Below are positions 51,634 to 57,138 of a DNA stretch of 64,000 bases, one piece after another. The stretch spans positions 4,898,001 to 4,962,000 of the forward strand of contig NZ_AP022600.1 in NCBI RefSeq assembly GCF_010725885.1. The letters are read 5' to 3'. The notes beneath the pieces were generated by a model that worked only from the letters and a program-made list of their open reading frames with translations, ran no database searches and was not told where the DNA came from. How positions within the stretch are numbered: the stretch's first letter is position 1; every line of letters begins with the position of its first letter. The stretch is from Mycolicibacterium tokaiense. GTDB lineage: Bacteria > Actinomycetota > Actinomycetes > Mycobacteriales > Mycobacteriaceae. The position numbers were made by a program, and so were the translations under genes.

Positions 51634-51639
51634 TAGGTT
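51634..51639 (+). promoter_or_regulatory. Candidate leaderless -10 element (TAGGTT) of the nuclease-ATPase cassette
   Basis: TAGGTT fits TANNNT and ends 6 bp before the GTG at 51646, with no ribosome site. It suggests that the three-gene cassette has its own promoter and does not depend on the DUF72 transcript. Confidence 0.45.
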
Positions 51640-51645
51640 GGTCCG

Positions 51646-52659
51646 GTGCGATCAGCCCTCTCGGAGCTCCCCACCGATCGGGTGATCTGCCTCGAGGGGC
51701 CGACCGTCGAGCAGTTCGCAGTGGCCATCGACCCACTGCCCGAGAACGCCCCGGTGATTGTCATGCTCGAGATCGGTGCGGCAGCGGATGCGGCCGGCGC
51801 CGTGGGCATCGTCTTGGACGCCCTGGAGTCGGTGGCCCGGGCGCAGCTGACCGCCTGGCTTCCCGCCGCCGTCGCGGTGACCGCCAGTAGCGACGCAGAG
51901 CGCCGCACCATCCGCCGACTGGCTCGCGAAACCGCTTCGAGCACATCTCTTTACGGCCCCTACCTGGCCGACCTGGCCGAAGCGGCCCTGCGGCGGCAAC
52001 CGCGCGTCCACCGCCACGATGCCGACACCCGCGCCGCCGCGCTGTCCGGGATTCTGGCCCGCACCTACGGCCGCGCCGCAGTGACCCTGGCGTGGTGGGC
52101 CGCGGCCGCGCTGCCGCCGGTGGCGCAGCAGGTGCTGGGAACCGCAGCGCACTGGTTCACCGGGCGCGGCTTCGGGATCTGGATCCTCGGGGCGGGCGTG
52201 GTCGAGCCGGGCCGGTTCCCGACGGTGACGCTGACCGCTGCTCCGCCCGCCGACGCTGCGAGCCCCGCGCTGACTTTTCCGGTGCTGGCGGGCCGACCGC
52301 ACCCGGGCAGCGCTGTCGAACTGGACGTCGAAGCACGGCTGCAGCGGCACGCCTGGGCACGTGGGCGCACCTGGAACCAGATTTATCACCCGCACCCGCT
52401 CACCCCGCCCATCCGGGTGGACCTGATGTGGCCCGCCGAGCGGGTGGTGGTGGAGCTCGACGGGCCGGACCACCGTGGCATCGTGAAGTACGCCGACGAC
52501 CGTCGGCGTGACAACGCGCTGACCGTCGGCGGCTACGCGGTGCTGCGGTTCACCAACGCCGAGGTGACCACCGATGCGTCACGGGTTCTTGCCATGATCG
52601 AAGGACTGCTGGCCGCACGACGTGAGGGAGGGACACCGGGTGAAGATCGGGCTCGATGA
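51646..52659 (+). CDS. DUF559/Vsr-like PD-(D/E)xK nuclease-domain protein (cassette gene 1)
   Basis: 337 residues. The C-terminal ~120 form a DUF559-like nuclease: GSAVELDVEARLQRHAW, Asp259 in RVDLMW, Glu270-x-Asp272 in VVELDGPDH, then KYADDRRRDNALTVGGYAVLRFTNAEV. The carboxylates match the restriction-endonuclease-like active site. The N-terminal ~200 are unrecognised, with WWAAAALPPVA as a hydrophobic helix and FGIWILGAG. It starts a tight operon with a winged-helix protein and a double ATPase. Possible roles are anti-phage nuclease or DNA repair. GTG start is supported by a -10 box 6 bp upstream. Confidence 0.75.
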   Translation: MRSALSELPTDRVICLEGPTVEQFAVAIDPLPENAPVIVMLEIGAAADAAGAVGIVLDALESVARAQLTAWLPAAVAVTASSDAERRTIRRLARETASSTSLYGPYLADLAEAALRRQPRVHRHDADTRAAALSGILARTYGRAAVTLAWWAAAALPPVAQQVLGTAAHWFTGRGFGIWILGAGVVEPGRFPTVTLTAAPPADAASPALTFPVLAGRPHPGSAVELDVEARLQRHAWARGRTWNQIYHPHPLTPPIRVDLMWPAERVVVELDGPDHRGIVKYADDRRRDNALTVGGYAVLRFTNAEVTTDASRVLAMIEGLLAARREGGTPGEDRAR

Positions 52660-53284
52660 GCTGACCGGAACCGAACAAGCCGTACTCCTGGTGTTACTGG
52701 CGCAGGCGCGGCCGGTGCCCAACCCCGAACTCGGCGCCCTGGGCCCCGTTCTGACCAAGCCCAGCCGCGACAAACTCAACCGAATGGGCCTGGTGCACAG
52801 CGCCAAGGTGGGGCCGCGACTGGTCCACGAGCTGACCGACGACGGCTGGGCGTTCTGCCGACGGCTCTTCGGTGCGCCGGCCCCCGAACGGGCCACCGCG
52901 CAGGGCAGGGCGCTGTACACGGTGCTCCGCAGCCTCGACCGGTTCTTCACCGGTGCCGACCTGCCGCTGGCCGAGGTGTTCGGTCCGGGCGCGGCGCCGT
53001 CCGACACGCCGACGCCGACCGCGCCGCCCGATGAGCAACAGGTCCGCGACGCCTACCGCCGGCTCGCAGGTCAGGCCGGCGACTGGGTGGGGTTGGCCCG
53101 GCTGCGGGCCGAACTCCCCGATGTGGCACCCGCTGAACTCGATGACACACTGAAACGGATGTATCGCAAGACTGGCGTGCACCTGATCCCCGAAGAGAAC
53201 CAGAAAGTGCTCGGCGAGCACGACTGGGCCGCTGCCGTCGTCATCGGCGACCAGCACAAGCACCTGATCGCGATCGAGGCCTGA
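52640..53284 (+). CDS. Two-winged-helix-like protein (cassette gene 2), unrecognised family
   Basis: 214 residues. The N-terminal ~75 look like a winged helix (LTGTEQAVLLVLLAQARPVPN, PSRDKLNRMGLVHSAKVG, RLVHELTDDGWAF); the C-terminal ~95 look like another (VRDAYRRLAGQAGDWVGLARLRAELPDV; ELDDTLKRMYRKTG), ending in strands VVIGDQHKHLIAIE. A Pro/Thr-rich linker lies between. It probably bridges DNA or partners in the cassette. GTG 52640 is chosen because AGGGAGGGA lies 7 bp upstream; GTG 52622 adds six residues. It overlaps gene 1 by 20 bp and gene 3 by one base (TGATG). Confidence 0.65.
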   Translation: MKIGLDELTGTEQAVLLVLLAQARPVPNPELGALGPVLTKPSRDKLNRMGLVHSAKVGPRLVHELTDDGWAFCRRLFGAPAPERATAQGRALYTVLRSLDRFFTGADLPLAEVFGPGAAPSDTPTPTAPPDEQQVRDAYRRLAGQAGDWVGLARLRAELPDVAPAELDDTLKRMYRKTGVHLIPEENQKVLGEHDWAAAVVIGDQHKHLIAIEA

Positions 53285-56200
53285 TGCAACCACGCGATCG
53301 CGAGGCGCTGTCGTCGCTGCGTCTGACCTGGGCGCCCACCACCGACGATCTGTGGCGTTCGCAGGCCGGCCTGCATGTCAGCGGTCTCAACGAGGGTCCG
53401 CTGTCGGAGGTGCTGGCCGCCGTCGACGACGCCAGGCTGGGTCCGGACGCCAGCCCGCTCGGGGTGGTGCTGCGAGGGCAGGCCGGATCCGGCAAGACCC
53501 ACATGCTGGGCCAGGTGCGCGAGCGGGTGCAGGCCGACGGAGGATACTTCTTCATCGTCGAACTGCTGGACGCCACCAGCTTCTGGCAGTCGGCGCGCGC
53601 CGGGATCCTGGAGAGCCTGGGCCGTCCGGGCGTCACCCGCGAAACCCAGCTCAAAGACGTGCTGTGGGAACTGGCGTCGGTGGCGCACGTGTCCCGCGCC
53701 GACCGCCGCGCCATCGTCGGCGACGACGAGCTGACCCCTGACATCCTCGAGCGTTTTGTCACCGCGCTGTTCAAGGTGCACCGCGAGACGGTGCGCCAGT
53801 GCCGGCATGTGCTGCGTTCACTGGTGCTGCTCGGCGCCCTGGACTTCGGGCAGCAGGACATCGGGCAGGCGTTCCTGAGCTCCAACGACGAACCCGACGA
53901 CCGGTCTCGGTGGGGGTTGCCCGCACCCAAGGCCACCGCCCAGGAGACCGTGCGCGACATCGCCAGGGTGGTGGCGCTGGCCGGACCGATGGTGCTGGCG
54001 GTGGACCAGATCGACACCCTGTTGGCGCAGTCGCCCGAACGCACCGAGTCCTCCAGCGAGCAGACCGACAACCGCGATCTCGAACACGTCGCGCACGGCC
54101 TGATGTCGGTGCGGCAGAACATGCGGCGCACGGTGGCGGTGGTGGCATGCCTGCCCGCCGCCTGGGAGGCCATCCGGGTACGCGCGACATCGACGGTGGC
54201 CGACCGGTTCCGTGTCACCTCACCGCTGCAGGGCCTGCCGACTCCCGAGCTGGGCCGGGCGATCCTGGAGCGACGCTTTGCCGCCGCGTACGCCGGTGTG
54301 GGCTTCACCCCGCCCTACCCCAGCTGGCCGATCGCCGCGGCCGCCTTCGACGACGCCCCGGAGTACACCCCTCGGCAGCTCCTCAAGCGGGCCGACAGCC
54401 ATGTGCGGCACTGCCTGGGCACCGACACGCTGATCGAATTGACGTCGCTGTCAACGGAATCCGAGGCGGTGGAGCGCCCCGCACCCGCACCGGACGTCGA
54501 CGCCGGCGACCTCGCTGCTCTGGACGCCCGGTTCGTGGCCTACCGCAGACAGGCTGTCGCCGCGGTGGCGTTCGACCCCGAGGGCGAGGACACCACCATG
54601 CCGGAGCTGCTGGACGCGGCGCTGCGGGCGTGGATGGTCGAGGCCGGCGACGCCGGATCCGACTTCCGCGTGGACCCCCCGCCGGGTGCCAAGGTGACGC
54701 TGCACGCGCGGCTGCGTCAGAGCCTGGACGCCGACACCGACGACGAACAGCACTGGGCGTTTCGGGCCATCGCCGCGTCCAACGCCGTCGCCGCGCTCAA
54801 CCGCATCCGAAGCGCCAGCGACGCAGCAGGTCTCAACGCCACCACCGATCGCCGCAAGCTGTTCCTGCTGCGTAACTCACCGTGGCCCAGCGGCAAGAAG
54901 ACCGCCGAGGTGATCGCCGATTTCGAGGCCGCCGGCGGCCAGACGCTGCCCCTGTCGGATGAGGACCTGCGCACCATGACGGCGCTGCGTGATCTGGTGG
55001 CCGATGACAACCCCCGGCTGCAGGCCTGGCTCACCGCCCGTAAACCGGCCCACGGAATCACCGTGCTGCGCACCGCACTCGGCGACGTGGCCGATGCCCA
55101 GGCCGTCGAGGTGCCCGACGCCGTCGAGGACGCCGCAGAGGCGGCGGCACCCGCGGACCTCACACCCCGCAGCGACACCGCGATCGCCGTGGGCGTCGAC
55201 GTGGGCAGCGGCGAGCGCCAGGATGTCGAGCTCGAGGAGTTGCGCAAGCACACCGCGATCTTTGCCGGCTCGGGCTCGGGCAAGACGGTGCTGATCCGTC
55301 GCATCGTCGAGGAGTGCGCCCTGCGCGGGGTGTCCTCCATCGTCCTGGACGTCAACAACGACCTCTCCCGCCTGGGCAGCCCCTGGCCGCAAACCCCGCG
55401 GGGCTGGGACCCGGCCGATGACGCGCGGGCCGCCGAATACCTGCAGAACGCCGAGGTGCTGGTGTGGACGCCGGGCCGAGAAGCCGGGCGCCCCTTGACG
55501 TTTGCGCCCCTGCCCGATTTCGCCGGCGTGCTCGGCGATCGTGACGAGTTCGCCCAGGCGGTGGACTCGGCGGTCGCCGCACTGGAACCGCGGGCCCTGA
55601 TCACCGGCAACTCCGGCAAGGCCGGCCGGATGCGCGCGGTGCTGCGCGAGGCGCTCACCTTCTACGGCAGCCAGGGCCGCTCGGATCTGCCCGGGTTCAT
55701 CACCCTGCTCGGCGCCCTGCCCGAGCACGCCAGCACCATGACGCGGGCCGCCGAGCAGGCTGCCGAGATCGGGCAGAACCTTAAGGCCGCCGCCATCAAC
55801 GACCCGTTGTTCGGTGGCGCGGGGCAATCCGCCGATCCCGGGGTGCTGCTCACGCCGTCGCCGGGGCACCGCGCCCGCGTATCGGTGATCAGCATGATCG
55901 GACTCGCGTCCGAACAGCAGCGCGAAGGCTTCGTCAACCAGCTGCAGATGGCGTTGTTCGCCTGGATCAAACAACATCCGGCCGGCGATCGCCCCTTGGG
56001 CGGGCTGCTGGTGATGGACGAGGCGCAGAACTTCGCCCCGTCGGGCCGGTCCACCATCAGCCTGCGCAGCACCTTGGCGCTGTCGTCGCAGGCCCGTAAA
56101 TATGGGCTGGGGCTGGTTTACGCCACCCAGTCCCCCACCGGGCTGCACAACCACATTCCGGGCAATGCGGCCACCCAGTTCTACGGGCTGCTGAACTCCG

Positions 56201-56415
56201 CCACCCAGATCTCCTACGCCAAGGAGCTGGCCCGGGTGAAGGGTGGGCTGGTGCCCGACATCAGCCGGCTGCGGGCGGGCAACTTCTACCTCGCTGCCGA
56301 AGGCCAGGCCTTCCACCGGATCCGCTCGCCGTGGTGCCTGTCATTCCATCCGCAGAGCCCGCCGACGACGGAGGACGTGCTGCGGTTGGCTCAGGCCGGT
56401 CAACGAGGCGGGTGA
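53284..56415 (+). CDS. Double ATPase: N-terminal AAA and C-terminal HerA-like motor (cassette gene 3)
   Basis: 1,043 residues. First ATPase: Walker A GQAGSGKTH with Lys71 and Walker B-like VLAVDQID (about 237-244) with a following arginine-rich sensor region. Second ATPase: HerA/FtsK-type, Walker A AGSGSGKT with Lys667, Walker B LLVMDEAQNF with Asp912-Glu913, then SSQARKYGLGLVYATQSPTGLHN and ATQFYGLLNSATQ, the DUF87 pattern. The two are joined by a long helical region (about 390-640). HerA motors translocate DNA with nucleases; here the nuclease is probably gene 1. No close family is recognised. The 3' end lies in a 62-bp tandem duplication. Confidence 0.85.
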   Translation: MQPRDREALSSLRLTWAPTTDDLWRSQAGLHVSGLNEGPLSEVLAAVDDARLGPDASPLGVVLRGQAGSGKTHMLGQVRERVQADGGYFFIVELLDATSFWQSARAGILESLGRPGVTRETQLKDVLWELASVAHVSRADRRAIVGDDELTPDILERFVTALFKVHRETVRQCRHVLRSLVLLGALDFGQQDIGQAFLSSNDEPDDRSRWGLPAPKATAQETVRDIARVVALAGPMVLAVDQIDTLLAQSPERTESSSEQTDNRDLEHVAHGLMSVRQNMRRTVAVVACLPAAWEAIRVRATSTVADRFRVTSPLQGLPTPELGRAILERRFAAAYAGVGFTPPYPSWPIAAAAFDDAPEYTPRQLLKRADSHVRHCLGTDTLIELTSLSTESEAVERPAPAPDVDAGDLAALDARFVAYRRQAVAAVAFDPEGEDTTMPELLDAALRAWMVEAGDAGSDFRVDPPPGAKVTLHARLRQSLDADTDDEQHWAFRAIAASNAVAALNRIRSASDAAGLNATTDRRKLFLLRNSPWPSGKKTAEVIADFEAAGGQTLPLSDEDLRTMTALRDLVADDNPRLQAWLTARKPAHGITVLRTALGDVADAQAVEVPDAVEDAAEAAAPADLTPRSDTAIAVGVDVGSGERQDVELEELRKHTAIFAGSGSGKTVLIRRIVEECALRGVSSIVLDVNNDLSRLGSPWPQTPRGWDPADDARAAEYLQNAEVLVWTPGREAGRPLTFAPLPDFAGVLGDRDEFAQAVDSAVAALEPRALITGNSGKAGRMRAVLREALTFYGSQGRSDLPGFITLLGALPEHASTMTRAAEQAAEIGQNLKAAAINDPLFGGAGQSADPGVLLTPSPGHRARVSVISMIGLASEQQREGFVNQLQMALFAWIKQHPAGDRPLGGLLVMDEAQNFAPSGRSTISLRSTLALSSQARKYGLGLVYATQSPTGLHNHIPGNAATQFYGLLNSATQISYAKELARVKGGLVPDISRLRAGNFYLAAEGQAFHRIRSPWCLSFHPQSPPTTEDVLRLAQAGQRGG

Positions 56416-56515
56416 GGTACGAGCCCGCCGAGGAAGGGCCGGGCTTCGATGTTCAGGCCGGTCAACGAGGCGGGTGAGGTACGAGCCCGCCGAGGAAGGG
56501 CCGGGCTTCGATGTT
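56392..56515. repeat. Exact 62-bp tandem duplication at a convergent gene boundary
   Basis: 56392-56453 is repeated base for base at 56454-56515, and the first eight bases appear again at 56516-56523. Each unit carries the last 24 bp of the ATPase gene, including its stop, and a hairpin-capable segment (AGCCCG with CGGGCT). 62 is not a multiple of three, but the first copy already holds the stop, so the protein is intact. The convergent kinase gene stops at the end of copy two. Confidence 0.95.
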
Positions 56516-57138
56516 CAGGCCGGGTCGCCGTAGATCACCAGGTCGGCACGGTTGCGGGTGGCGTCGATCAGCCGGGCGTTGGGTTCGTCGCTGCGCTGCA
56601 CCCAGTCCTGGGCCTGCGCGGCGGTCTTGCCGAACTCGATGTGCCGGGCCACCAACCGGCTGACCCGCTGCTGCTCGTCGGGCACCAGGAACCAGGCCTC
56701 GTCCAGCAGGTCGCGAACCTCGCCCCACGGATCATCGGGCAGCAGCAGGTAATTGCCCTCGGTGATCACCAGCGGCACCTCCGGCGGCACGGCGATGGCG
56801 CCGGCGAAGGACTCCTCGACCTCGCGGTGGAACTCCGGGGCGTAGACCGTCCGCCCGTCCGGGTGGCGCAGCCGCTGCAACAGCGCCACGTACCCGGCGG
56901 CGTCGAACGTCGGCGGGGCGCCCTTGCGGTCGGCCAGCCCCAGGCGGGCCAGTTCCGCACCGGCGAGGTGGAATCCGTCCATCGGCACGATCACCGCCGC
57001 CGCCCCCAGCGCCGCACGCACCGCCTCGGCCACCGTGCCCTTGCCCGACCCCGGCGCTCCGGCGATGCCCAGCAGCCGCCGCTGCCCCGGGACAGCCAGC
57101 GCGGCGGCGCGGTCGATCAACGTGGCCAGGTGCATCAT
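56515..57138 (-). CDS. P-loop small-molecule kinase (uridine kinase/PanK-like fold)
   Basis: 207 residues. Walker A GAPGSGKG (about 27-34), then IVPMDGFHLAGAELARLG, with the D-G-F-H motif of nucleoside/phosphoribulo-type kinases, and PLVITEGNYLLL for Walker B. These are the features of the uridine kinase-like family whose members also phosphorylate sugars (fructose, ribulose). It is coupled to the SIS-domain gene (ATGA or TGATG with two tandem ATGs at 57138 and 57135). The pair suggests sugar or sugar-phosphate metabolism. Confidence 0.85.
   Translation of the reverse strand: MMHLATLIDRAAALAVPGQRRLLGIAGAPGSGKGTVAEAVRAALGAAAVIVPMDGFHLAGAELARLGLADRKGAPPTFDAAGYVALLQRLRHPDGRTVYAPEFHREVEESFAGAIAVPPEVPLVITEGNYLLLPDDPWGEVRDLLDEAWFLVPDEQQRVSRLVARHIEFGKTAAQAQDWVQRSDEPNARLIDATRNRADLVIYGDPA

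Follow-up and report, generated by a model that had tools for sequence, protein, structure and literature searches.

A nuclease, winged-helix and HerA-type double-ATPase cassette of Mycolicibacterium tokaiense as a probable accessory anti-invader system

A nuclease gene coupled to a HerA-type motor gene can be read as machinery for the host's own DNA ends or as a weapon against foreign DNA, and which of the two applies is the question raised by a locus of Mycolicibacterium tokaiense (assembly GCF_010725885.1; genome of 6.33 Mb in a single contig, NZ_AP022600.1). The locus lies in a stretch of 64,000 nucleotides (positions 4,898,001 to 4,962,000, forward strand), referred to as the window, and consists of three genes named g1, g2 and g3. 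The cassette is accessory, and it is probably an anti-invader nuclease-translocase, directed most likely at phages or plasmids, that degrades DNA.

Gene organisation and conserved residues

The three genes are co-directional, and neighbouring genes overlap by 20 bp (g1/g2) and 1 bp (g2/g3). The features, in window coordinates, are as follows.

51634..51639, + strand: putative -10 element TAGGTT, candidate leaderless start, 6 nt ahead of the GTG of g1
51646..52659, + strand: g1, 337 aa, an AAA+/STAND-like domain at the N-terminus followed by the DUF559 nuclease
52303..52626, + strand: g1 nuclease domain, aa 220-327, Vsr/EDxHD-like (DUF559 match, alignments, nuclease fold)
52640..53284, + strand: g2, 214 aa (start codon GTG, 52640), with two winged-helix domains in tandem (alignments, model)
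53284..56415, + strand: g3, double ATPase (AAA+, middle region, HerA/FtsK-like motor), 1043 aa
53401..54423, + strand: AAA+ domain at the N-terminus of g3, approximately aa 40-380, with the Walker A motif GQAGSGKT (65-72) and Walker B D241
54502..55068, + strand: middle region of g3, spanning roughly aa 407-595 and conserved in the alignment; candidate position of an inactive restriction endonuclease (REase), by analogy with Orc/CDC6-HerA systems
55168..56394, + strand: g3 HerA/FtsK-like motor, about aa 629-1037, with K667, D912, E913 and a conserved QARKYGLG stretch

An earlier note on this DNA had described three coupled genes with these overlaps, a DUF559 core in g1 (Asp259, Glu270, Asp272), two winged-helix-like domains in g2, and an AAA unit plus a HerA-like motor in g3 (Lys71; Lys667, Asp912-Glu913), and this description was borne out. 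The open reading frames and overlaps are present as claimed. DUF559 was matched in g1 at E 4.5e-12, above the Pfam gathering cut-off, and D259, E270 and D272 were invariant in 27 of 27 and 34 of 34 orthologues (two alignments), as were H276, D285, R288, D289 and N304. The AAA+/STAND-like domain of g1 has no Walker A motif. PADLOC gave just a weak DpdF match to g1 (E 0.012), and the VIA-align rows for its N-terminus mix ABC transporters with AAA+/STAND chains, so that a family absent there is no evidence.

For g2, the predicted structure consists of two winged-helix domains (mean predicted local distance difference test score, pLDDT, 93.8; predicted template modelling score, pTM, 0.61). An alternative upstream start at 52622 would lengthen the protein to 220 aa. 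No Pfam, NCBIfam or PADLOC family was matched by g2 at E 1, and its VIA-align rows span the first half only, where a missing family is again no evidence. Foldseek searches with the g1 and g2 models turned up nothing down to a threshold of E 0.001. A copy of the g2 C-terminal domain was also seen at the N-terminus of proteins of about 2000 aa (L183:6957-12965, L184:6833-12718); the L183 protein has matches to SF2 helicase families and weak ones to methyltransferase families.

Pfam matches of g3 to AAA_22 (E 4.5e-10) and DUF87/HerA (E 2e-7) were both above cut-offs, and among 25 g3 members scanned AAA_16 was matched in 25, AAA_22 in 21 and nSTAND_NTPase5 in 16. K71, D241, K667, D912 and E913 were retained in 137 of 138 aligned rows, and the remaining row (L131) is blank at the first site; the motor residues K667, D912 and E913 were present in all 138. 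The row closest to that of the window came from Mycolicibacterium palauense (74% identity, 1020 columns). PDB profile searches with the AAA+ domain and with the middle region gave nothing specific, and the Pfam scan of the latter gave noise. Kinship between the AAA+ domain of g3 and the N-terminal domain of g1 was considered and rejected, the profile comparison being not significant.

Some loci encode long g3 variants of 1412-1652 aa with a big insert ahead of the motor (L185:672-5630, L186:5879-10723, L187:6118-10356, L188:11843-16186), Pro/Ala-rich in L185 and L187. No g1 hit was obtained in L185-L187, and motor residue R938 is missing from these three. Near the long variants, the opposite strand carries genes whose starts resemble Ser/Thr kinases; for L185, Pfam confirms the assignment.

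A likely leaderless promoter, also proposed earlier, found partial support. The TAGGTT element does lie 6 nt before g1, but TANNNT occurs 6-9 nt upstream of g1 in only 9 of 62 orthologous upstream regions, against 6 for all other positions together, with 3 of the 62 regions lying within TIR fusions. From the sequence, a leaderless g1 promoter is thus plausible, though a minority of orthologues show the element.

Distribution and genomic sites

Full-length g3 was found in 53 of 201 genomes of the family, and the identical 53 contain g2, with E values no higher than 1.4e-42. Full-length g1 (E 3.4e-100 or better) was present in 41 of these 53 genomes and in 0 of the remaining 148. Outside the 53, g2 was matched weakly in two genomes without full-length g3, namely G107 (a fragment, E 6.5e-7, residues 2-78) and G008 (E 2e-4). 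The earlier note had suggested looking for the trio across genomes; the three genes co-occur there, and the trio is present in two phyla. In Mycolicibacterium, g3 was found in 3 of 15 and 7 of 26 genomes (two genome sets, own genome included), and at class level in 46 of 394 genomes at E 1e-30 or better. A scan of genome contigs gave at least 574 relatives among 597 pattern stretches, and the best 80 were kept. These come from Mycolicibacterium, Rhodococcus, Streptosporangium, Actinoplanes and kin, with a g2 match ahead of g3 in 80 of the 80 loci (partial in L119) and a g1 match in a minority.

The second phylum is represented in a plasmid collection, which gave three matches to the cassette. 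The mobilizable alphaproteobacterial plasmid pMaq22A_1p of Methylobacterium aquaticum (1.57 Mb) carries g1 (E 2.9e-41), g2 (E 7.2e-28) and g3 (E 9e-269) in the order of the window; its g3 sits on a long tree branch, so the donor cannot be named. The matching Nonomuraea "plasmid" record is 11.85 Mb long and appears chromosomal. In the third, a Tsukamurella "plasmid" record of 224 kb (L203, NZ_LR134464.1), the trio lies inside the core ribosomal-protein operon, and because of this operon the record is probably chromosomal. Among viral contigs, 89 pattern stretches were found, none coding for a relative, and phages gave no match to the cassette.

Thirteen genomes of the genus have a strong match to the neighbouring DUF72 gene, and the site occupied in the window was compared in ten of these relatives. 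The cassette was absent after DUF72 in 10 of 10. Eight of the ten also share a thiolase-like gene on the opposite flank, with variable genes between, and two (L208, L209) share the DUF72 side only. One of the ten (G052) carries the cassette elsewhere on its own contig (0.23 vs 4.15 Mb). The flanks of the cassette vary by lineage. Against easy mobility, g2-g3 stand behind the same DUF72/reductase genes across a large Mycolicibacterium clade, while Tsukamurella and many Rhodococcus-type loci have the cassette in the interval from rplN to rpsQ. The rplN-rpsQ junction (e.g., L044, L128, L130, L203) was seen to receive other genes as well.

A pump and a cutter might also belong to the transfer or maintenance apparatus of a mobile element. 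HerA/FtsK pumps function in conjugation and phage packaging (PMC10853773, main text), and the Methylobacterium copy is on a plasmid. This explanation is nevertheless very improbable: no integrase, relaxase or transfer family was found among nine flanking proteins scanned, the flanks differ by lineage, and the viral and phage searches yielded no copies.

Exchange of the nuclease gene ahead of g2

The slot occupied by g1 is exchangeable. Among 138 g3 loci it contained g1 in 67 (two of them, L196 and L067, counted by hand, with g1 cut at a contig edge or on another contig, G030), a TIR-g1 fusion in 3, a DUF4365 gene with a partner in 5, and none of these in 63 (including L053, where a gene clusters with the DUF4365 partner without an adjoining DUF4365 gene). 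Two of the fusions were scanned, and both matched TIR_2 at the g1 N-terminus (E 1.4e-33 and 5.4e-33); the third fusion was assigned by sequence. In the loci scanned, the DUF4365 gene matched the PADLOC model PDC-M02A, with a best E value of 4e-71, and its partner matched PDC-M02B, with a best E value of 4.8e-141. DUF4365 was found by Pfam in L190 and L191, PDC-M02A in L191 and L076, and PDC-M02B in L191, L076 and L054; L054 was assigned through its nuclease, which clusters with that of L076, the partners in L190 and L192 align to that of L191 at 42% and 65%, respectively, and the L192 nuclease was assigned by likeness of its start only. The DUF4365 partner was tried as a relative of g1, and profile comparison showed no relation. 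In L099, L102, L105 and L148 another gene (gene 87) lies upstream of g2; by eye it does not resemble a nuclease.

These data bear on the alternative, left open by the earlier note, of housekeeping DNA end-processing or repair, in which an actinobacterial analogue of HerA-NurA would have g3 feeding broken chromosomal DNA to g1 for resection, with g2 regulating or loading. The layout of a nuclease with a HerA motor fits it. Three further points favour repair and weigh against an anti-invader function: the genes are under purifying selection (ratios below), many Rhodococcus-type loci occupy a fixed chromosomal site, and the Pfam-matched neighbours of the cassette in the window are metabolic or protease genes. 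Repair is still unlikely, given a patchy distribution (53 of 201 family genomes; 3 of 15 and 7 of 26 in its own genus), absence beside DUF72 in all ten relatives, 63 of 138 loci lacking a linked nuclease, a plasmid copy in another phylum, and the exchange of TIR and PDC-M02 modules in the slot. Of the two functions that had been put forward, anti-phage defence, widened here to invaders in general, is favoured by the accessory nature, the plasmid copy and the slot exchange.

Maintenance of the g2-g3 core

The history of the slot was followed on a g3 tree (FastTree, with long-branch warnings; 138 rows, 131 distinct), from which L071, with a broken g3 and no g2 hit, was excluded. On this tree the g1 label has to change 14 times, and starred branches force at least 12 of these changes, a count that does not fix gain versus loss. 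Of 60 loci in which the g1 profile had no hit, four (L090, L094, L117, L147) carry relics of g1 before g2-g3, which speaks for losses of g1. Of the 63 g1-less loci, 62 show both ATPase sites in intact form. The ratio of nonsynonymous to synonymous substitution rates (dN/dS; NG86, 24 hand-chosen pairs, some with dS above 1) was 0.05-0.19 for g3 and 0.09-0.38 for g2 in 12 g1-less pairs, and 0.03-0.29 for g3, 0.05-0.53 for g2 and 0.14-0.36 for g1 in 12 g1-bearing pairs. The low ratios in g1-less pairs indicate that the g2-g3 core is maintained without a linked nuclease.

The same observations count against a nuclease-translocase and in favour of g2-g3 as an independent DNA-handling pair, acting for example in segregation or silencing of foreign replicons, with g1 as an optional linked helper: the many g1-less loci with intact ATPase sites, the low g3 ratios among them, and the g1 relics. 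Such a pair has a minor share of the probability, for full-length g1 was never found apart from g2-g3 (0 of 148 genomes), other nuclease modules substitute for it, and the trio is found as a unit in two phyla.

As a tentative extension, given somewhat less than even chances, g2-g3 may serve actinobacterial immunity as a general-purpose "loader-motor" chassis with interchangeable effectors (AAA+/STAND-like-Vsr nuclease, TIR-nuclease, PDC-M02A/B), which might also be active without a linked nuclease, through an effector in trans or through translocation alone.

Proposed mechanism

In the anti-invader reading, g2 and g3 would form the invariant core. The two winged helices of g2 and the AAA+ part of g3 would recognise invader DNA or load onto it, and the HerA/FtsK part, presumably as a ring, would pump it. 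The cutter would be g1, whose N-terminal AAA+/STAND-like domain may dock on or sense the ATPase and restrain the Vsr-like nuclease; once the motor engages, the nuclease would be released and cut the translocated DNA. Other cutters would take this place in some lineages, either the TIR-g1 fusion, with NAD depletion as a possible further effect, or the DUF4365 nuclease and its partner. Since no methylase was matched in g1-g3, self would have to be told from non-self by the state or the location of the DNA or by a phage signal. We infer complex formation, translocation, cleavage, trigger and phage protection from comparative data, and the literature search found no experimental report on the cassette.

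Comparison with known systems

The closest described class is the "HerA/FtsK capture" systems, computationally predicted by Rakesh, Aravind and Krishnan (2024; PMC10853773) and proposed to intercept invader DNA. According to its main text, the Orc/CDC6 type comprises an Orc/CDC6 AAA+ protein, REases (one inactive, one active), HerA/FtsK and a winged helix-turn-helix (wHTH) domain, in fused or separate genes. The cassette shares the AAA+, HerA/FtsK motor, nuclease and wHTH components, some of their systems having a multi-wHTH gene, and TIR/STAND fusions are reported from related neighbourhoods. Walker A and B of the HerA/FtsK ATPase are intact in 138 of 138 rows, and the g2 model contains wHTH domains. 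The AAA+ part of g3, a candidate member of the Orc/CDC6 family, gives AAA_16, AAA_22 and nSTAND_NTPase5 matches. Their inactive REase lies between AAA+ and wHTH; the g3 middle region, its candidate counterpart, is conserved and matches no family. Their active REase belongs to two families (one as in AbiJ; described without Pfam names), whereas here the nuclease is DUF559/Vsr-like and carries its own AAA+/STAND-like domain. Their TIR/STAND domains are fused to the ATPase, whereas here TIR is fused to the nuclease. The trio is close to this scheme in kind and appears to differ in type and placement of the nuclease.

That the combination was not recognised, as the earlier note put it, holds in so far as the trio is unnamed in the two catalogues scanned, and less so in view of this predicted class. 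The main text of PMC10853773 contains no "DUF559", "Vsr" or "Actinom*", and a listing in its supplement is possible. Among the papers listed in the searches, none names the trio in its title or the start of its abstract, no title describes such a system of HerA with DUF559 or with DUF4365, and no paper with "PDC-M02" was found.

Other HerA-type systems were compared as well. Archaeal HerA-NurA (end resection; PMC12977600) likewise joins a HerA-type motor to a nuclease; here the partner is DUF559/Vsr-like, AAA+ and wHTH parts are added and the distribution is patchy, and no NurA match was found in g1 in Pfam, NCBIfam and PADLOC scans. HerA-DUF4297 and HerA-SIR2 defence (PMC11291478) also combines a HerA motor with an effector in two genes, whereas the cassette has three genes and a second ATPase, and no DUF4297 or SIR2 match in g1-g3. 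BREX-Related Capture (BRC; PMC12839542) has HerA, an Orc/Cdc6 AAA+ protein, a STAND-type NTPase, a wHTH protein and a nuclease; the cassette lacks PglZ, DUF6079, DUF4007, GNAT and TGT matches. Neither PglZ nor BrxC/DUF6079 was matched in g1-g3 or the nine flanking proteins, where the sole Brx match was BrxL to a Lon protease. The best PADLOC match of g3, in its motor part, was mad8 of MADS (E 1.2e-14), followed by several HerA models, yet no other mad gene was found in PADLOC scans of g1, g2 and the nine flanking proteins. Matches between g3 and DndH were short (E 0.021 and 0.054), with no DndF or DndG match.

PDC-M02 (A, DUF4365; B, unknown) fills the nuclease slot before g2-g3 in the five loci given above. 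It has no match in the cassette of the window, and PDC-M02B has none in the window's genome at E 1e-8. Nine other PDC-M02B loci gave no g2 or g3 profile hit among predicted genes, two of the contigs being short; one (L235) has neighbours that by eye resemble homologues of McrBC and GmrSD.

If the anti-invader reading is correct, a widespread actinobacterial defence system has gone unnamed in these catalogues because its adaptor g2 has no profile and its motor scores merely as generic HerA or mad8. DUF559, of "unknown function" in Pfam, would gain a defined partner motor, the PADLOC candidate PDC-M02 would be linked to a motor, and the phage susceptibility of environmental mycobacteria and Rhodococcus could be influenced.

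Additional observations

Actinoplanes-type loci that lack g1 encode, divergently and adjoining g2-g3, a large protein with WD40 repeats (L142:1893-6116, by Pfam), whose N-terminus looks protease/ATPase-like by eye. Genes of the same cluster occur in L145, L149, L153 and L155, and L195:10037-14068 is a further case. At 56391-56523 of the window, a 62-bp unit is repeated perfectly in tandem (2.1 copies, 100% match), and the repeat includes the 3' end of g3; the full unit has no further full-length match elsewhere in the genome. Five more DUF559 matches over cut-off are present in the genome of the window (contig G000:C1, at 2500995, 4242117, 2972924, 5757841 and 3075253).

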